Shown: positions 1 through 8,592 of the stretch, piece by piece
How positions within the stretch are numbered: position 1 is the first letter of the stretch
Layout: the number at the start of each line of letters is the position of its first letter
Source of the DNA: an uncultured Flavobacteriaceae bacterium
Lineage (GTDB): Bacteria; Bacteroidota; Bacteroidia; Flavobacteriales; Flavobacteriaceae
DNA: 64,000 nucleotides
Assembly (NCBI GenBank): GCA_947494205.1
Contig: CANLUH010000003.1
Coordinates: forward strand, 1-64,000
Direction: 5' to 3'
Translations under genes and position numbers: made by a program
The notes under the pieces: model-generated
Databases searched by the model: none
What the model was told of the DNA's origin: nothing
The model's input: only the letters and a program-made list of their open reading frames with translations

Positions 1-64
1 AGTAGATTCTGCATGGTCGTTAACAATAAAAATTTCTCCAGTAGAGATTTCGTTACACTTCTAG
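1..64 (+). CDS. RiPP precursor peptide, copy 1 (5' end cut by window edge)
   Basis: Codons 2-61 encode the last 20 residues (VDSAWSLTIKISPVEISLHF) and the stop is TAG at 62-64. This tail is identical in protein sequence to the complete precursor at 136-273. Over about 66 nucleotides the two copies differ at only two third-codon positions (TCG versus TCA, both Ser). The start and leader lie before the window. The copy shows that the precursor gene is tandemly duplicated, and further copies may lie upstream. The core has Ser and Thr but no Cys. Confidence 0.75.
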   Translation, partial: VDSAWSLTIKISPVEISLHF

Positions 65-135
65 AGTATAACTAGTTGCAAGTAAATAGAAATATTTACA
101 ACATATAATTTAATAATCAAGAAAACACAAATATT

Positions 136-273
136 ATGAAACCAGAAAACAAAAAATTAGATTTCTCAAAAAGTTCAATCGTAGAGTTAAATGATCAAGA
201 TATGTTAGGAGTAGATTCTGCATGGTCATTAACAATAAAAATTTCTCCAGTAGAGATTTCATTACACTTCTAG
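136..273 (+). CDS. RiPP (class I lanthipeptide-type) precursor peptide, 45 aa, Cys-free core
   Basis: ATG at 136, stop TAG at 271. The leader begins MKPENKKLDFSKSSIVELND, which resembles the leaders of Bacteroidota class I lanthipeptides with an LDF/FNLD-like recognition box. The spacing L18, D22, M23, V26, S28, A29 fits a double-glycine-type leader (positions -12, -8, -7, -4, -2, -1) with Ser-Ala in place of Gly-Gly. I infer cleavage after A29 by the C39 exporter at 5280-7439, giving a 16-residue core, WSLTIKISPVEISLHF. That core has four dehydratable residues (S31, T33, S37, S42) and no Cys, so a Cys-derived lanthionine ring cannot form within it. The gene was found by translating by eye. 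Its link to the modification operon rests on proximity and leader type. Confidence 0.75.
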   Translation: MKPENKKLDFSKSSIVELNDQDMLGVDSAWSLTIKISPVEISLHF

Positions 274-299
274 AGCTTTATAAAGCACTATTTAATTAG

Positions 300-332
300 A
301 AGCAGCTTGGAGGTAATCTTCAAGCTGTTTTT
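300..332 (+). terminator. Rho-independent terminator after the precursor genes
   Basis: An imperfect hairpin pairs 300-309 with 321-330 (core CAGCTTG/CAAGCTG) around an 11-nt loop, and a run of T follows from 328. It lies just after the precursor stop and fits termination of the precursor transcript. Confidence 0.65.
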
Positions 333-407
333 GCTTTAAAAACATGTCTATGGCTATAATTAGGCATATTTATTAATAGAATTGAGTTAACTATAAAATA
401 CTTAGAT

Positions 408-959
408 ATGGATCAAAAAATTGAAATACCACTAAACAAAAATAAAATGCTTTTAAGTATTATTTGGTGTGTTTTGCTAACAGTAATTGGAGTACTATTA
501 GTTTTTAATAATAACTTTCAAAATACATTTATAACTCTTTTTAAATCTATGTTGCTACTAAAAGGTATTGGCATTTTTTTTATTTTATTTTTTGGAACTA
601 TTGGCGTTTTTGGAACTAAAAAACTTTTAGGAGAAAAAATAGGACTTACAATAGATTTAAAAGGCATAAAAGACAATACAAATAACTCAAGTGTTGGGTT
701 TATTAATTGGGATGATATCTTGAAAATAAAAACTAAAAAAGTATTATGGGTTAAATTTCTTTTAATTGAAGTAATTAATCCTGAAGCTTATTTTGAAACG
801 GTTAAGAGCAAAATGAAGATGAAATCTATGCGGGAAAACATGAAAAACTATAAAACACCTATAACAATAACATCTAGTACTTTAGCCTATAGTTTTGAGC
901 AACTAGAAGCACTTATACAGTTAGAATTTAAAAAGTATAACGAACAAAAAAATGAATAA
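408..959 (+). CDS. STM3941-like two-TM membrane protein
   Basis: A 183-aa protein with a short polar N-terminus (KIEIPLNKNK) and two hydrophobic segments at about residues 14-34 and 48-68. A cytosolic domain follows, containing GFINWDDILKIK. The polar start, paired TM helices and an I-W-D-I segment near residue 100 resemble the STM3941 family of uncharacterised membrane proteins. The function of that family is not known to me. The gene lies between the RiPP precursors and the convergent modification operon. It could be a self-immunity protein, as small membrane proteins often are in RiPP loci, or merely a neighbour. Confidence 0.6.
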   Translation: MDQKIEIPLNKNKMLLSIIWCVLLTVIGVLLVFNNNFQNTFITLFKSMLLLKGIGIFFILFFGTIGVFGTKKLLGEKIGLTIDLKGIKDNTNNSSVGFINWDDILKIKTKKVLWVKFLLIEVINPEAYFETVKSKMKMKSMRENMKNYKTPITITSSTLAYSFEQLEALIQLEFKKYNEQKNE

Positions 960-980
960 CGTTATTAATGTAACAGCATA

Positions 981-1014
981 AAAAAACCGAAACTATTAAC
1001 AGTTTCGGTTTTTT
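981..1014. terminator. Bidirectional terminator between convergent genes
   Basis: A perfect 14-bp inverted repeat (981-994 and 1001-1014, 6-nt loop) has an A run on its left flank and a T run on its right. It can therefore terminate both the plus-strand gene ending at 959 and the minus-strand operon ending at 1034. Confidence 0.85.
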
Positions 1015-1033
1015 TGTTATTACTCTTATTCGG

Positions 1034-2128
1034 TTAGTAAGTGAAACAGACTTTTCCTAAACGATCTTTATTCATGTTAAATGATTTATGAATAAAATCT
1101 GATAAATTGTCGTCTTCATTAAAATTACTATCTATTGATATAAGTGTGTTTTTATTAACTAAATCAATTCCTTTTTCCAAGTCTTCTGTAGAACCTAAAC
1201 AATTACCTATTAATTGAATATTAAAAATAACCATAAGAGGTAATATTTTTGAGATATCTACCGCCTTACCATTTGCAATCTTCTCTGTCGTTTGGTTAAA
1301 AATACCACAGGTTAAATATCTACAATTGTAATTAAGCTTTCGTGTTAAAATTAAATGAGGAAAATAGGTGTCTGAAAAAGGATCTAAAACAGCATCGAAA
1401 ACAAGGTTTTCTGGAATAGCATTTTCTTTTAAAGAGAAAATATCTTTTATGTTAGGAAATTGATTCCTAACATACTCTATATTTTTACCAGAATACGACA
1501 GGCCATAAATATTACAATCGTAATCATGTAATAAATTTAAAAGAAATAGAGATGTGTAGGACGTTACAGAAGTTACTAGTACGTTATCCCCTTTTTTAAT
1601 TTTGGCTTTGTTAATCATAGACATGCCTGTCTGCGCTCCAATACCTAAGCCAAAAGCCACGTCTAAAGGGAAATTTTTAGGAAGTTTTATTAGCTTTAAT
1701 TTGTGTAGTGTCTCTAACTCTTTGCTTCCATGATTTGTAGGAAGTCCAGGTCTAGCGTTTTCTTTTCCTTCTGGATAGAAACCATCTTGTATTACTAAAT
1801 CTCCAACAGACAAATTAGTAACATTAGAGCCAATTTTAACAACTTCTCCACAGAAATCTGACCCAATAGGGTAATATGAGTCTCCTTCAGTTTCTTTTAA
1901 CCTATTCCAAGCGCTTTCTATAACACCAAAGTCTCTATAGTTTAAAGAAAACCCTTTTTTCTTTACTAAAACATAATCTGCATATCTGTCATCATCTTCA
2001 TCAAATTTTTCATCAGGTACATGAATTAAGGCTATTGGTATTTTTAACGAATCTATAGGGATGTAACATTTATCTTCTAAATCTACTTTCTTATCTAATT
2101 CAGGGCTAAGTACAGCAAGTGCTCTCAT
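1034..2128 (-). CDS. MDR-family reductase, putative dehydroamino-acid (LanJ-type) reductase
   Basis: A 364-aa medium-chain dehydrogenase/reductase. The N-terminal GroES-like domain contains LNYRDFG and the stretch GSDFCGEVVKIGSNVTNLSVGD, a typical alcohol dehydrogenase/quinone oxidoreductase signature. A Rossmann domain follows, with a degenerate nucleotide-binding loop near VLVTSVTSYTS. No structural-zinc four-Cys lobe is apparent. It is the last gene of the operon, 13 bp after the dehydratase gene. MDR enzymes in lanthipeptide clusters (the LanJ group) reduce Dha and Dhb to D-Ala and D-aminobutyrate, and I infer that role here. The Cys-free precursor core supports this, because dehydrated residues would have no thiol partner. 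A different oxidoreductive tailoring role is possible. Confidence 0.7.
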   Translation of the reverse strand: MRALAVLSPELDKKVDLEDKCYIPIDSLKIPIALIHVPDEKFDEDDDRYADYVLVKKKGFSLNYRDFGVIESAWNRLKETEGDSYYPIGSDFCGEVVKIGSNVTNLSVGDLVIQDGFYPEGKENARPGLPTNHGSKELETLHKLKLIKLPKNFPLDVAFGLGIGAQTGMSMINKAKIKKGDNVLVTSVTSYTSLFLLNLLHDYDCNIYGLSYSGKNIEYVRNQFPNIKDIFSLKENAIPENLVFDAVLDPFSDTYFPHLILTRKLNYNCRYLTCGIFNQTTEKIANGKAVDISKILPLMVIFNIQLIGNCLGSTEDLEKGIDLVNKNTLISIDSNFNEDDNLSDFIHKSFNMNKDRLGKVCFTY

Positions 2129-2141
2129 AGTTTTGTGTTTT

Positions 2142-5100
2142 TTAATTTGTTAGTGTTTTCTCGTTGCTTTTTTTCTGGGTATGTAGTTGTTTGTTGTAGT
2201 ATTTAAATAACATGTCATAAACAACCATTTCATGTATACGTTGCTTTGCTAAGAAAATACGGTTACAAACCATATGTAAATAGCTTAAAACAACATCGCT
2301 TAAACCAGTAGCTAATTTTTTCTCTTTATTTAATTCAAGCAGTTTCTTTACAATGGGTTTGTTTTTAATTGAACGCTCTTCTAGAATAGCCCATATTGGA
2401 GCATAAGCCTCTAGGTGCTTCTCTTCACTTAAAAAACTTTCAATGGTAGACATGTTATTGCTATACAATTCATTAACCTGTTTATTTAAAGCTCCTGTTT
2501 TATTAAATTCTTTTCCAAACCCTTTTCTAGAGAAATCTAATAGCTTTATTTTTTCTTTAAGAGTAATTCCAAAATCACTTAAAAGATGATCCATAGATAG
2601 TAAAGCAAATAACCATCTAATTTGTTCTCCAGAATCCCCTTCTATCATGTCTGCGAATTTGACGGTACATTCGCTGTCATTAAAAAATAGTTCTTCAGTG
2701 GGGTCAATAGATTCAAAACCATAACGTTGTAATTCTCTTAAATATGTGTCTGTTTGTGTTTTCCAAATTAACAGGTTGTCTTCGAAAGGTTGAATGTGTT
2801 TTTTGATAGTTAAGATACACTCAGAGAAATTTTGTAGGTCGTTTAAATGAACTCTAAAACGTAAATGGTGTCCGTCTTTATCTATATAGCGAATAAAGAA
2901 CCATTTATCTATTAGGTTTTTAGCCTTTAGTTCGTCAACTATTGGCTTAATAGCTTGGTTTAATAATTTTTCTCCTACACGTTCACCACAGTAAAACTTA
3001 TAATATAACCATTCGTCTCCTGTAGAATAAGATGCTTTTTGTATAGAAGAATTTGTCTCTTTATTTTTAGGAGCAACAGGTTGTTCTTTAGGTGCGTTTC
3101 TATAAGCAGGTATTACAAATTCGTTACAATAATTACCCGTAACGGTTTCTTCTTTAAAGAAAAACTCTTTTAAATAGATTAATTTTTCTCCTTTAAGCAT
3201 TAAATAAAATACCTTACAACTTAAATCGTTTTCAAAATTTATAACCACCTCATTATCTCCTTGAGTAAAAGAGATAACATTAGGTATGTCTCTTTCTTTT
3301 TGAAATGAACGAACAGCATCTATGGCATTCTCTTCTTTTTGAGATAGAATATGTTTAATGTCTTTATTTCTAATTGCCCATGTTGCTCTAGATAGTATTA
3401 CATCTTTGTAACAAACTCTTGGTAAGAAATCAAATTCTTGATTTAAAATCCCCCAACTAAAAGCCAGTCCAGACTGTTCTTGGTCCTGTAAGTCGCATAA
3501 AAAATGATATATCGGTAAGGCATTAGCACTATAGTTATGTGCGTTACCTAATCTTGGAATAATTTCTTTATTTAATTTTTTTGAACGTAGTACTATTTTA
3601 TTCCTTTTAACAGAAACGTAAATATCTGAAACATCTATTTGGTTGTCTTTATCTAAAGATGAATTTCCTAAATAAGGTATTTCGTAATCTCTTCTAAACT
3701 TTCTGTATAAAATATTACCAGTTCTGGCCTGCGGTAAATGTATTATTTCTGCTAATATCTTATTTGGGTGAAGGGCTTTGTCATGTTCATGTATTTCGTT
3801 GCAGGATTCTAATATGGCATCGTTTAAATGGCTAAATCTACCAACTAATCCGTTTGCTGAAGGCCCCCAGATAGATTTTAAGTTTATTTTTTCAACTCCA
3901 TCTTCATGGAAAATATTGAAAAAAGTAGAAAAACTATCTGGATATAATGACTCTTTTTCTTCGAATGTATTAATATCTTCATCAGATAGATTAATAACTG
4001 TATCCCCTTTTTTAGTAGCAGAAAGTGCTTTTTTAAATAAAAAAGATGTTTTTTCATTCCAGCTTACTTTTCTGTCTTTAGAGTATTTAGGTAGTATAGC
4101 AAGCTTATCTACTAGAGGTGTTTTTGCACCAGAATTGTTGCCATAACCAATACCTAAATCTGGATCTAATACATTAATTAAAGGTTGTTCATATTCTTCA
4201 TAGCGTTGCTGAAACTTTCGTTTAAAGTCTTCTAGAAGTGTATTTTCTCTTTCGCCTTGAAGTTTATTTAAAACAACAATTGCGTTTCTTATTTTCTTTA
4301 ATGAAGAATAGCTTAATGAAGACTCTGGAAGATGTCTGTAAGTGTCTACTTGAAACAATTTACTTACATCTGCTTCTTGAATTTGATTCTCTATAATTTT
4401 ATGTATGTCTTTATAGCTTTTAGGATCATTAACAACCGAAGTATCTAAATCTGTTATCTTTTCTTTTAAGGTCGTTAATAGTTTCTTAATAGTATTAGCT
4501 TCATAAAAATCGAAACGTTTTTCGTTTAATGTTTTAAGTAGAGCTTCTAAGTAATCATCTCCAGTTAAGGTAAATTCTATTTCACTAGTAAAAAACTGAC
4601 TATCTATAACTTGATTTATAAAGTTTATGGCATCTTCTTCTGCAATACCATCATTAACTATAGGTTTAATAATGTCACTTATAAGCGCTCCATTTTTTGC
4701 AGCTTCTAAGGTCATTTCTAGGTACTCGTTAATATCTACCTCAGATATTTTATGGCATCTTACATTATCTTTATTAAAATAGTATTCTACATAGCGATAT
4801 TTATCCATAACCTTGTACATAGAGTTATTAGGAAAATACCTTAGTGCCGCTCTTATGGCCTTATTTTTAGTGATTTCTGGTAAAAACTTCCCTAAAAAGT
4901 ACATGTCGAATTTTGTTGTACGTTCTATGGTAGCCTTATCCATATTAATATGAGTTTCTTTACCCATTTTAACAGAAGAAACTGTTGCCCAAAGACCAAA
5001 AGGTGTACACCTGTTAGATAAACGAGAGACATATTTGTATAAAGACCCTTGTAAATTTTTTAATTCGTCTTCAGTTTGGAATGCTTCGCCTTTTTCCCAC

Positions 5101-5261
5101 AACTCTAATGCATTATGTATATTTGGGGAGCCTATAAATAACGCTTCTCTGTTTTTTTTATCCTTAAAAATTTCTTGAATCTCTTCCCAAGTTACATCTG
5201 TTTTTTTGATGCCTAAAGGTGTTCGTATAACTGCTTTATTTGTAAATGAATAGTTTTTCAT
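2142..5261 (-). CDS. lanB: LanB-type lantibiotic dehydratase (glutamylation and elimination domains)
   Basis: A 1039-aa full-length class I dehydratase. The first 700 or so residues match the Lant_dehydr_N domain, which transfers glutamate from glutamyl-tRNA to Ser/Thr. They include the early RTPLG motif, the SRLSNRCTPFGLWATVS segment and PRLGNAHNYSANALPIYHFL. From about residue 745 to the end is the SpaB_C/thiopeptide-type elimination domain, with EWLYYKFYCGERVGEKLL and WFFIRYIDKDGHHLRFRVHL. Elimination of the glutamate yields dehydroalanine or dehydrobutyrine. Both domains are on one chain, unlike split LanBs. It lies 18 bp downstream of the exporter gene. No LanC gene is in the operon, which is closed by a terminator on one side and a divergent gene on the other. 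Confidence 0.95.
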   Translation of the reverse strand: MKNYSFTNKAVIRTPLGIKKTDVTWEEIQEIFKDKKNREALFIGSPNIHNALELWEKGEAFQTEDELKNLQGSLYKYVSRLSNRCTPFGLWATVSSVKMGKETHINMDKATIERTTKFDMYFLGKFLPEITKNKAIRAALRYFPNNSMYKVMDKYRYVEYYFNKDNVRCHKISEVDINEYLEMTLEAAKNGALISDIIKPIVNDGIAEEDAINFINQVIDSQFFTSEIEFTLTGDDYLEALLKTLNEKRFDFYEANTIKKLLTTLKEKITDLDTSVVNDPKSYKDIHKIIENQIQEADVSKLFQVDTYRHLPESSLSYSSLKKIRNAIVVLNKLQGERENTLLEDFKRKFQQRYEEYEQPLINVLDPDLGIGYGNNSGAKTPLVDKLAILPKYSKDRKVSWNEKTSFLFKKALSATKKGDTVINLSDEDINTFEEKESLYPDSFSTFFNIFHEDGVEKINLKSIWGPSANGLVGRFSHLNDAILESCNEIHEHDKALHPNKILAEIIHLPQARTGNILYRKFRRDYEIPYLGNSSLDKDNQIDVSDIYVSVKRNKIVLRSKKLNKEIIPRLGNAHNYSANALPIYHFLCDLQDQEQSGLAFSWGILNQEFDFLPRVCYKDVILSRATWAIRNKDIKHILSQKEENAIDAVRSFQKERDIPNVISFTQGDNEVVINFENDLSCKVFYLMLKGEKLIYLKEFFFKEETVTGNYCNEFVIPAYRNAPKEQPVAPKNKETNSSIQKASYSTGDEWLYYKFYCGERVGEKLLNQAIKPIVDELKAKNLIDKWFFIRYIDKDGHHLRFRVHLNDLQNFSECILTIKKHIQPFEDNLLIWKTQTDTYLRELQRYGFESIDPTEELFFNDSECTVKFADMIEGDSGEQIRWLFALLSMDHLLSDFGITLKEKIKLLDFSRKGFGKEFNKTGALNKQVNELYSNNMSTIESFLSEEKHLEAYAPIWAILEERSIKNKPIVKKLLELNKEKKLATGLSDVVLSYLHMVCNRIFLAKQRIHEMVVYDMLFKYYNKQLHTQKKSNEKTLTN

Positions 5262-5279
5262 AATTCAATAAATTTTGAT

Positions 5280-7439
5280 TTATAATCTTATATTTTCCCA
5301 CATTTTGTGGTAATAGTTTTTGTTATCTAATAATTCTTGATGTGTACCAGATTCAACAACTTCTCCTTTTTTAAGAGCTATTATTTTATCTGCTTTAATA
5401 ATTGACTGTAGTTTATGTGCAATTATTATTATTGTTTTTCCTTCTTTAGCTAGGTTATCTATAAGTTTTTTGATGACTAGTTCGGATTCTGAATCTAGTG
5501 CTGAGGTGGCTTCATCCAAAATAAGTACTTCAGGGTCTTTGTATAATGCTCTAGCAAAGGCTATACGTTGTCTTTCTCCTCCAGAAAGGTTAGCGCCAAA
5601 TTCACCTAAGTAGCTTTCAAAACCGTTAGGAAGCGATTCTATAAACTCGTAAGCACCGACTTGTCTACATACTTTCATTATTTTCTCCATATCGGGATTG
5701 TATTCCCCAATAGCGATATTAGAGATGATAGAGCCGTCAAATAATTCTACGCTTTGTGGTACAGTGGTAATGAGTTTATTAATGCTATTTTTTGTTATAT
5801 ATTTTAAATCGTAATCTCCAATATTTATTTTACCGCTATTTGGTAAGTATATATTTTGAATTAATGATGCTATAGTACTTTTTCCACTTCCACTTTCTCC
5901 AACAATTGCTGTAAATTTTCCTTTAGGTATAGTTAAAGACAATTCTTTAAAGATATCTCTACCTAGTTCGTAGTGGAAACTAACCTTGTCGAACTGTATA
6001 TCTCCTAGAGAGTGTTCATTTATATTTATGTTAGCATCATTTAGTTCAGTTTCTAGGTCCATAATACCAAATAGTCTATCTGCTGCTATTAATGCATTTT
6101 GTATAGATTTGTTGGTGTTAATTAGTTGTGATGCAGGTCCGGTGAAATAGCCTATTATTGAATAGAAAGAGAATAACTCTCCAGGTGTAATGTCTCCGCC
6201 TATTACATAATATGTTCCTGCCCATAATAATATAACAGTGAATACTCTAGAAACGAAATCTGTAGATATATTAGAGAAAATATGGTTTAAACCAGAGTTG
6301 TAAACGGTTTTAAGTAAATCTATAAACTTAATTTCCGTTTTGTTTTTAGAAAACTCTTCTAGAGATAATCGTTTTACGGTACCAATGTTTTTTATAGATT
6401 CTACTAGTTGAGATTCTAGCATTGCATTTTTCTCCATCACCTTACGTTCGGCATTTTTATTTAGCTTATTTACTATAAGATATATAATGATGTAGAAGGG
6501 TATGATTAATGTAATAATGGCAGCAAGCTTCCAATAATACGTGTACATGAATATAAAAGAGAAAATAACAATAAAAACGTTTACTATTATGCTTAAAGCG
6601 GTTTCGTTAATAAGTAATCTAATTTTTACAGCATCTCCTATTCTAGACATGATTTCCCCAATTCGCATAGTATCGAAGAATTTTTGAGGCATAGTAAACA
6701 AGTGTTTATAATAGCCTAGAATTAATCTAGAGTCTATTTGTTGACTTGTTTTAAGCATAAAAACGTCTTTTAAAGCACCAAAAATGAACTGAAGAATAAT
6801 ACAGAAAATAACAATTATACTCATTAAATTAAGTAAGCTCTTATTGCCGCTAACCAATACAAAGTCTGTTATTTTCTCAATGTATATTGATATGGAAAAG
6901 CCTAGGAGTGTATATATTATAGACCCTATAATAGCCTGTAAAAGTATTTGTTTGTGAGGCTTTAAAAGAAAAGCCATACGTTTAAAGTTTGAAAACTTTT
7001 CGTTACGTTCTGTAAAAATATCTTCGTCTGGGATTAATATTAACATATACCCAGTAAATATGTCTCTAAACTCTTCAATGTCCTTTTTTTCCAGCTTACC
7101 AGTTGCTGGGTCCATAATTTGTACGTATTCCTTTGTTGCTTTGTAGATTACTACGTAATGAGGGAATTCGTGTTGGTCTATTTTAACCATTATATGGGCA
7201 ATGGCTGGTAAAGGAATATCTGTTATACCTTCTATAGAAGCTTTAACACCCTTTGCAGAAAATCCAAGTTTATTAGCAGCTTCTCTTAACCCTAATAAAG
7301 TTGTTCCTCTTTTACCTGTGTTGGCATATTGACGAATACGTGCAATAGGTAAGCTTAAATTATAATGCTCGGAAATAGAAGCTAAACATGCGGCTCCGCA
7401 ATCACTATAATCATGCTGTTTTATTTCTATTTTACTCAT
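5280..7439 (-). CDS. lanT: Peptidase-containing ABC transporter (PCAT, LanT-type)
   Basis: A 719-aa exporter that cleaves the leader and transports the peptide. The N-terminal C39 peptidase domain (about 1-130) has oxyanion Gln8, nucleophile Cys14 in DCGAAC, His94 and Asp110, so it looks catalytically intact. A six-helix ABC membrane domain follows at about 160-450. The nucleotide-binding domain has Walker A GESGSGKST (about 512-520), signature LSGGERQ (about 617), Walker B LILDEATSALD and the H-loop IIIAHKL. Its start overlaps the end of the upstream hlyD-like gene by 8 bp, indicating translational coupling. The precursor leader has double-glycine-type spacing, which is the substrate class expected for C39 peptidases. 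Confidence 0.95.
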   Translation of the reverse strand: MSKIEIKQHDYSDCGAACLASISEHYNLSLPIARIRQYANTGKRGTTLLGLREAANKLGFSAKGVKASIEGITDIPLPAIAHIMVKIDQHEFPHYVVIYKATKEYVQIMDPATGKLEKKDIEEFRDIFTGYMLILIPDEDIFTERNEKFSNFKRMAFLLKPHKQILLQAIIGSIIYTLLGFSISIYIEKITDFVLVSGNKSLLNLMSIIVIFCIILQFIFGALKDVFMLKTSQQIDSRLILGYYKHLFTMPQKFFDTMRIGEIMSRIGDAVKIRLLINETALSIIVNVFIVIFSFIFMYTYYWKLAAIITLIIPFYIIIYLIVNKLNKNAERKVMEKNAMLESQLVESIKNIGTVKRLSLEEFSKNKTEIKFIDLLKTVYNSGLNHIFSNISTDFVSRVFTVILLWAGTYYVIGGDITPGELFSFYSIIGYFTGPASQLINTNKSIQNALIAADRLFGIMDLETELNDANININEHSLGDIQFDKVSFHYELGRDIFKELSLTIPKGKFTAIVGESGSGKSTIASLIQNIYLPNSGKINIGDYDLKYITKNSINKLITTVPQSVELFDGSIISNIAIGEYNPDMEKIMKVCRQVGAYEFIESLPNGFESYLGEFGANLSGGERQRIAFARALYKDPEVLILDEATSALDSESELVIKKLIDNLAKEGKTIIIIAHKLQSIIKADKIIALKKGEVVESGTHQELLDNKNYYHKMWENIRL

Positions 7440-8592
7440 TGTTGTTGCTGTTGTTGTAAGGGTTAAACCAGTCGTCTATACTGTCGAATAAGAGTTGAAA
7501 AAGGCTTCTTTTTGTTAAGAAAAAACGACTAGTAACTGTCATTCCCTTTTTTAATTTTCCAGAAGCGCCATTGCTTAGAAATAATTCTTTTTCTTTTAAA
7601 GTGCTTCTAATTTTAAAAATAGAAGTGTTTTGGTAGGTTACAATATCTTTCCCTACCTCAGTAATTTCTCCAGTAGCAAAGCCCCATTGATTTGAATTGT
7701 AAGAGTCTATCTGGTACTTGGCAGTTATTCCTTCTTTTATATAACCAATGTCTGAAGGAGAAATATAAGACTCTATAATTAGGTTTTTTGCTGGAGAAAT
7801 ACTTGCAAGTGTTGTACCGCCGTTAACAAAACTTCCCAAATTAAGACCTTGAACGTTTATAAGTTCTCCATCTAAAGGTGCTCTTAAAACATACATGTCT
7901 TTTTCTTCTGTTAATTGTTTTTCGTTAGAATCTAAATTATCCAGAGACTGTTGGTAATCTGTTAATTCGTTTTGCCAAGAAAGCTGTGTAGTTCTTATAG
8001 TAATAACTCTATTGTCTTTAGCTTTGTCTAAAGCTAACCTTGCTTGGTTAAACTCTATTTTAGGGATGACATCTTTTGCGTAAAGATGTTTAGCAGTATT
8101 AAATTTTTCGGTAGCATCTTCAATGTCTGTGTTGATATTTTGTATTTGTTGTAAGTATTTTGTTTTCTCCTTCTGGTATTTACTAGTCTTTAATTTAGAA
8201 TACTGTCCTTTAAGTAAAAACTCTAAATCCGTTATAAAATCCTGAATGTTCTCTTTTTGAATAGTTAATAAATTACCTTTCTCTTCAAGAATTTTTTGGT
8301 CGATAACTAATAACGTATCGCCTTTAGAAACATATTGGTTTTCTATGAGATTAAAATATGTTATTTTACCACTAGTTTGCGCATATAAATTTACAGGTTT
8401 CTCTTCAGAAGTTATTTTACCACGACTTGTGGTATAAACATCTACATAAATAAAAGGAAGTGCTGTAAAAACAGCGATAATTGCTAAAAATATCAGCCAA
8501 AAAATAAGATTGCTTTTTTTGCTGTGTTTGGCAATATGATACTCTACAGTATTGTGTAGAATTTCTTCAGGAAAAATATTATTCTCTTTCAT
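7432..8592 (-). CDS. HlyD-family periplasmic adaptor of the peptide exporter
   Basis: A 386-aa membrane fusion protein. It has a short cytosolic N-terminus, one TM helix at about 29-50 (NLIFWLIFLAIIAVF), a lipoyl-like half-motif (SGKITYFNLIENQYVSKGD), a long coiled-coil hairpin at about 95-215, and the returning lipoyl half and beta-barrel (LRAPLDGELINVQGLNLGSFV). It should link the inner-membrane PCAT to an outer-membrane channel, probably TolC-like and encoded elsewhere. It is the first gene of the minus-strand operon, so the promoter must lie in 8593-8894. No good TAnnTTTG box was found there on that strand. Confidence 0.9.
   Translation of the reverse strand: MKENNIFPEEILHNTVEYHIAKHSKKSNLIFWLIFLAIIAVFTALPFIYVDVYTTSRGKITSEEKPVNLYAQTSGKITYFNLIENQYVSKGDTLLVIDQKILEEKGNLLTIQKENIQDFITDLEFLLKGQYSKLKTSKYQKEKTKYLQQIQNINTDIEDATEKFNTAKHLYAKDVIPKIEFNQARLALDKAKDNRVITIRTTQLSWQNELTDYQQSLDNLDSNEKQLTEEKDMYVLRAPLDGELINVQGLNLGSFVNGGTTLASISPAKNLIIESYISPSDIGYIKEGITAKYQIDSYNSNQWGFATGEITEVGKDIVTYQNTSIFKIRSTLKEKELFLSNGASGKLKKGMTVTSRFFLTKRSLFQLLFDSIDDWFNPYNNSNNNE

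Follow-up and report, generated by a model that had tools for sequence, protein, structure and literature searches.

A 64,000-nucleotide stretch of an uncultured marine Flavobacteriaceae bacterium (assembly GCA_947494205.1, contig CANLUH010000003.1, here C3), referred to as the window, begins with a gene cluster for ribosomally synthesized and post-translationally modified peptides (RiPPs). The cluster probably represents a class I-type RiPP system that lacks a lanthionine cyclase and carries a LanJA reductase instead. It includes a short precursor gene, a LanB dehydratase, a medium-chain reductase (MDR), and an exporter composed of a peptidase-containing ABC transporter (C39-ABC) and a HlyD-type adaptor. 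Since LanC is absent, the MDR is of the LanJA type and LanB is intact, dehydration of Ser and Thr followed by reduction of the products would fit the gene evidence, as the initial annotation had proposed. The genes that it had named were found again at their positions by calling open reading frames (ORFs) and scanning the window with Pfam and NCBIfam.

The lack of a cyclase is a property of the genome rather than of the window. No match to LanC (PF05147) at E<=1 was obtained in the whole source genome, which is 99.78% complete; the initial annotation had only seen none within the window. LanC is likewise missing from five further genomes with the same gene block (Bizionia and four Lacinutrix, including the complete L. 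neustonica chromosome). The search itself works in this family, as among 300 genomes 15 have a LanC match and 24 a LanB match. A LanC hidden on an unassembled stretch is unlikely, given 99.8% completeness and a complete L. neustonica chromosome that is also without one. Aquimarina sp. U1-2, which carries the block, does have a LanC, but service to this block is not favoured because the gene adjoins its own split LanB on a different contig. LanB is single-copy in the source genome, and the dehydratase of the cluster is LanB-type only, with no LanM-type enzyme there.

The LanB carries both domains of the family (Lant_dehydr_N, E 3e-123; Lant_dehydr_C, E 2e-66), and a profile of the seven LanBs found in such blocks matches NisB in PDB with E 9e-44. 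In the alignment, residues Y77, R80, R84, W628, R803, R846 and H996 correspond to NisB Y80, R83, R87, W616, R786, R826 and H961, the last pair through a conserved SYLHMxxNR motif outside the NisB alignment displayed. The NisB residues are essential or elimination-specific (PMC4341554, PMC4979651), and their counterparts are conserved across the LanB alignment. Judged by these residues the enzyme is catalytically complete, in agreement with the earlier description. Maximum-likelihood analysis places the seven LanJA-linked LanBs together in a single clade (100/100), which has a long branch and excludes the LanC-partnered LanBs. In the exporter, C39, ABC transmembrane and ATPase domains lie in one chain, with Peptidase_C39 at E 1e-34 and the motifs DCGAACLAS and HYVV.

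The MDR aligns with the LtnJ gene product of the lacticin 3147 plasmid pMRC01, which is encoded beside LanM, over all 364 residues (30% identity, E 2e-33), and is 34% identical to a LanM-adjacent MDR of Pseudanabaena. The motifs NxRD, GS[DE]F, GxQTxxSM, SxxSxTS, DPFxD, TCG and GNCxG are common to 16 such proteins from four phyla. On the full-length LtnJ match and these motifs the protein is assigned to the LanJA family, and the LanJ-type identity first given to it stands. A quinone reductase or alcohol dehydrogenase placed here by chance was rejected because generic MDRs of solved structure match the protein weakly (E 4e-7) and LanJA proteins match it along their full length. The AlphaFold2 model (pLDDT 90) adopts the MDR fold, and its best structure matches include zinc-free quinone oxidoreductases and enoyl reductases; no solved LanJA structure is among the matches listed, so that the structure search supports the MDR fold only. 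The places of the catalytic zinc ligands are held by Asn63 and Ser90, presumably as in zinc-free C=C reductases, which would fit reduction of dehydroalanine (Dha). Asn63, Arg65 and Asp66 are invariant.

The association of these genes is strongly conserved. Among the 300 family genomes the MDR occurs in only two, the source genome and Bizionia (same-genus genome G196), and always together with this LanB. In Bizionia the two genes are adjacent (LanB 73%, MDR 55% identical), and the C39-ABC is 86% identical. A scan of named genomes recovered the same block in Bizionia, four Lacinutrix genomes and Aquimarina sp. U1-2 when an alignment was used as query; a single MDR as query gave no match. The order HlyD, C39-ABC, LanB, MDR, facing a precursor array, is kept in seven loci, in all of which LanB is the neighbour of the MDR; in the window the two are separated by 14 bp. 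In L. neustonica (L040 8636-11094) the LanJA gene is tandemly duplicated, and both copies as well as LanB are frameshifted in the deposited complete chromosome, reflecting either sequencing errors or decay.

The precursor gene is convergent with the MDR/LanB/C39-ABC/HlyD operon and belongs to an array that continues beyond the window. Position 1 of the window is base 1 of C3, and the array is thus cut at the contig end. The right end of another contig, C19, holds two more copies encoding the identical 45-aa precursor, the last of which stops no more than two bases from the end, and the final 63 bases of C19 are the first 63 bases of C3. Most likely the assembly broke inside the tandem repeat and C19 continues the window leftward. 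Although this join is inferred from the repeat, it is backed by synteny with Lacinutrix venerupis, where one contig carries HlyD, C39-ABC, LanB, MDR, the precursor array, a TPR-AraC regulator and then the downstream genes of C19, including that for phosphoglycerate kinase. C19 carries 15 precursor ORFs with a common leader type, most with a double-glycine (GG) end. With the two exact copies on C19 and the copy end in the window, the window precursor is more than a chance ORF. Three lone precursors with the array-type leader lie far from the enzymes (L017 7183-7335, L018 7421-7579 and L019 7323-7487, on contigs C2, C9 and C18).

The leader of the window precursor matches lant_leader_L1a (NF038153) with E 5e-4 and 20.2 bits, the curated cut-off being 22 bits. 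Ten matches over 22 bits occur in the source genome, nine of them in the neighbouring array, and the best sister leaders reach 38.8 bits. The cleavage register after SA was set by ungapped alignment with family members whose leaders end in GG or NAG. The resulting core is related to CQWGDSSGATVTIKISIIDNPT of L. neustonica and to ASISIYIG, which follows a NAG site, and these relatives support a cut after SA. It has one Thr and three Ser but lacks Cys, in line with the four Ser/Thr and absence of Cys already noted for it. Its calculated [M+H]+ is 1870.05 unmodified, 1798.01 after four dehydrations and 1806.07 after four dehydrations plus four reductions, and a single dehydration would give 1852.04, or 1854.05 once reduced. 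An STM3941-family gene lies between the precursor and the reductase (Table 1). It is missing from this place in the related loci L024, L036, L037 and L040, and its product therefore probably stands outside the system.

Table 1. Features of the cluster and their positions in the window
Feature	Positions	Strand	Basis
3' end of further precursor copy, VDSAWSLTIKISPVEISLHF, truncated at contig end	2..64	+	Sequence identity with C19
RiPP precursor, 45 aa	136..273	+	lant_leader_L1a-type leader, expected to be cut behind DSA (at the GG position); core WSLTIKISPVEISLHF
STM3941-family protein, between precursor and reductase	408..959	+	NF041635, E 4e-34
LanJA-type medium-chain reductase (MDR), 364 aa	1034..2128	-	ADH_N, E 3e-9; LtnJ match; motifs
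LanB dehydratase, 1039 aa, with fused glutamylation and elimination domains	2142..5261	-	Pfam/NCBIfam
C39-ABC, peptidase-containing ABC transporter	5280..7439	-	Pfam/NCBIfam
HlyD-type periplasmic adaptor of exporter	7432..8592	-	Pfam

The 16 local precursors (C19 and the window copy) divide evenly: eight are Cys-free and eight have one or two Cys. Calling the whole system Cys-free, as the initial annotation did, was thus too general. Its ring-free product holds as far as intramolecular rings in the Cys-free cores are concerned but does not extend to the Cys-containing precursors of the array. The two things that it had expected to overturn its reading if present to the left of the window fared differently, as Cys-containing precursors are indeed there and C19 carries no lanC.

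Core composition was compared over 63 cores, distinct at 70% identity, which come from the arrays in four genomes and from portions of further ones. Ser and Thr make up a fraction of 0.27, whereas it is 0.12 for long ORFs at those loci. Cys is lacking in 24 cores, single in 25 and present twice or more in 14, while each of the 11 precursors found at the family's LanB+LanC loci has two or more. The frequency of Cys is about 0.033-0.034 in the 63 cores, 0.138 in LanC-served cores and 0.0066 in long ORFs. Cys-free cores (24/63 vs 0/11 at LanB+LanC loci, Fisher p 0.013) and Ser/Thr at core position +1 (51/63 vs 1/11, p 8e-6) both distinguish the arrays, with the p values serving as guides only because duplicates share ancestry. 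An alternating D/L peptide, such as a gramicidin- or polytheonamide-like beta-helix, was rejected as a general rule, since Ser/Thr pairs at i,i+2 number 91 against 112 expected (z -2.7). Hydrophobic residues show a weak i,i+4 pattern in the same cores (z 5.9).

The Cys-containing cores allow a different reading, in which the main products are lanthipeptides made from precursors such as TSPVCVGIIISLLVTRE. Rings to the Cys at +5 would close spontaneously or on LanB, the reductase would clear leftover Dha, and the Cys-free precursors would be minor or decaying. Cys is in fact about five-fold enriched relative to long ORFs and falls precisely at +5 behind Ser/Thr in 11 of the 63 cores (TSPVC, TGYVCSNC; cores of L024, L036, L037 and L108). 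The TSPVC family also occurs in tandem repeats and is conserved in Lacinutrix and Bizionia. A Ser or Thr lies two to six residues before 51 of the 55 Cys, although this is only modestly above what the richness in Ser/Thr would lead one to expect (about 79%). Cys is, however, four-fold rarer than in LanC-served cores, 49 of the 63 cores have none or one, and the Cys-free window precursor is present as three identical copies. We regard cyclase-independent lanthipeptides as an unlikely account of the main products. The CSNC of TGYVCSNC could be a disulfide or metal site.

The enrichment of Ser/Thr at +1 bears on a second alternative, that the peptides are dehydrated and linear but stay unreduced, the MDR acting elsewhere: on the N-terminal residue only, on the alpha-keto group arising from an N-terminal Dha or dehydrobutyrine (Dhb), or in a side reaction. 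The +1 preference suggests a special role of the first residue, and without reduction, hydrolysis of an N-terminal Dhb would leave a keto group. Many Dha and Dhb residues also escape reduction in known LanJA systems (PMC11519912). The MDR nevertheless has the full LanJA motif set in common with LtnJ, whose product is D-Ala, it is not of the short-chain type known for N-terminal lactate, and position +1 of the window precursor is Trp. The unreduced alternative is accordingly judged improbable.

In the preferred reading, dehydration followed by reduction, we infer the chemical steps, cleavage site, stereochemistry and substrate use from the genes. LanB would bind the leader, glutamylate Ser and Thr from Glu-tRNA and eliminate glutamate to give Dha and Dhb in many related precursors. 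The LanJA-type MDR would then use NAD(P)H to convert some or all Dha, and perhaps Dhb, to D-Ala and D-2-aminobutyrate (D-Abu). During export the C39 domain is predicted to cut behind the GG-like site, which is SA for the window precursor, with the peptide leaving through HlyD. Cys-free precursors, including that of the window, would yield linear peptides with D-residues and perhaps leftover Dha or Dhb; the Cys-containing ones may bear free thiols, disulfides, or rings closed without a cyclase. As with the prochlorosins, one enzyme set would thereby serve a cluster of about 16 precursors and a few more elsewhere in the genome. Such chemistry is feasible in view of two precedents, as a linear variant of nisin acquired D-Ala when LtnJA was combined with NisBTC (PMC10373908), and Dha was reduced by NpnJA in a system with a Cys-free precursor (PMC5808125). 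A bolder version, held tentatively as a fair possibility though somewhat less likely than not, describes a cyclase-independent branch of LanB in which one LanB and one LanJA act on up to about 20-35 precursors per genome, giving a combinatorial library of linear, exported D-Ala/D-Abu peptides, most with a reduced (D-) first residue. Such a branch would be the first class I dehydratase system in nature given over to D-amino acids instead of rings.

The arrays also contain regulators. TPR/AraC-HTH transmembrane regulators lie among the precursors in every array inspected (C19, L016, 8524-10224, 12256-13998 and 15265-17073; also L024, L037 and L040), and these could possibly sense the exported peptides. 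The array might on this basis encode unmodified or lightly modified GG-leader signal peptides sensed by the regulators, with LanB and the MDR serving only a few. In the C19 array these number three, each an HTH_18 protein with TPR repeats at its N terminus, and Bizionia and two Lacinutrix have similar ones in their arrays. However, LanB and the MDR are tightly conserved beside the exporter and the cores are unusually rich in Ser/Thr. Similar regulators moreover follow LanB in unrelated grasp-with-spasm loci and may simply regulate RiPP genes. A signalling array of this kind seems very improbable. A second LanC-less group of LanBs in Flavobacteriaceae (L105, L027, L030, L106 and others) consists of a split LanB followed by a TPR-AraC regulator; the split LanB of L105 adjoins grasp-with-spasm maturases (TIGR04192, TIGR04193).

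Several points weigh against dehydration and reduction without a cyclase. LanJA enzymes characterised so far mostly reduce Dha and leave Dhb as it is (PMC11519912), so that the Thr of the window precursor may stay Dhb; RodJA acts on both (PMC11519912). The SA cleavage site of this precursor is a non-canonical form of GG. Only three LanC-like candidates from a first look at the source genome were scored, all of them rejected, and an unrecognised cyclase may be present. The presence of Cys in half of the local precursors, together with the +5 positions, suggests a role for Cys, possibly in rings.

The cluster should not be filed as a lanthipeptide cluster, as the search for LanC was negative and the window core lacks Cys. 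No description of a LanB and LanJA set without LanC was found among the PMC papers covered, and the pairing of LanJA with a class I (tRNA-dependent) dehydratase and no cyclase appears to be new. In ribosomal peptides, LanJ-derived D-residues are on record for class II (LanM) and class V systems (PMC11519912). A survey that took LanC as its starting point and excluded cores lacking Cys remarked on zinc-dependent dehydrogenases in class I clusters, at a time when class II was the only class with observed D-residues (PMC7268733). Surveys of this design would miss LanC-less LanB systems with Cys-free precursors. If the proposal is true, it would provide a genome-encoded route to linear D-peptides, of use in peptide engineering, in which a tRNA-dependent dehydratase guided by the leader accepts a wide variety of natural substrates, and would make a natural LanJA-LanB partnership a question directly testable in E. 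coli.

Among known systems, the closest in concept is npn of Nostoc punctiforme (with NpnJA), and the cyclase-free D-residue idea itself was published for that LanM-type system. There, a Cys-free, Ser/Thr-rich precursor is combined with a dehydratase and LanJA but no cyclase, as is the case here for the window precursor and 24 of the 63 cores. A linear D-amino-acid peptide was hypothesised for npn, and Dha was converted to D-Ala in vitro (PMC5808125, PMC10373908). As compared through reviews, npn is cyanobacterial and LanM-type with Nif11 leaders, whereas the present cluster realises the idea with LanB, L1a/GG leaders and a large mixed array that includes Cys-containing precursors. The MDR resembles LtnJ (lacticin 3147), SacJ and RodJA, the pMRC01 protein matching it throughout and sharing its motifs. 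Unlike the present cluster, those are LanM systems whose peptides also have lanthionine rings; elsewhere, LanJA is known from class II (PMC11519912).

The Bacteroidota class I clusters with LanB and LanC (pinensin type; Spirosoma oryzicola pUnnamed8) share the LanB family, L1a-like leaders, the C39 exporter and HlyD. They differ in having LanC and multi-Cys cores, neither LanC nor obligatory Cys being present here. LanB is mostly split into two genes in Flavobacteriaceae. The fused LanB of Spirosoma was considered as another LanC-less case and rejected, as two lanC genes lie just beyond the first stretch and the precursors are Cys-rich. That class I plasmid cluster (L112 9158-12580), with its two lanC, also encodes a luciferase-like oxidoreductase, possibly a different Dha reductase. 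The prochlorosins and cyanotins (PMC7268733 for cyanotins) likewise employ one enzyme set on a large and diverse range of precursors that share a leader type, including scattered and Cys-free ones, but their LanM brings its own cyclase domain and their leaders are of the Nif11 type.

A parallel arrangement, which lends support to the preferred reading, is found in a Saprospiraceae metagenome-assembled genome (L041 7990-11464) and in Chamaesiphon polymorphus (L042 42-12579), where LanJA lies beside LanM proteins of 630 and 657 aa. Their match to the LanM model stops at position 519 of 932, they have the dehydratase domain and no cyclase half, and their precursors are Nif11-like with Cys-free cores. 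The dehydratase is LanM-type (kinase-like) and the leaders Nif11-type, unlike those of the window cluster. Together, the two kinds of loci suggest that loss of the cyclase has gone with gain of LanJA in two unrelated dehydratases.

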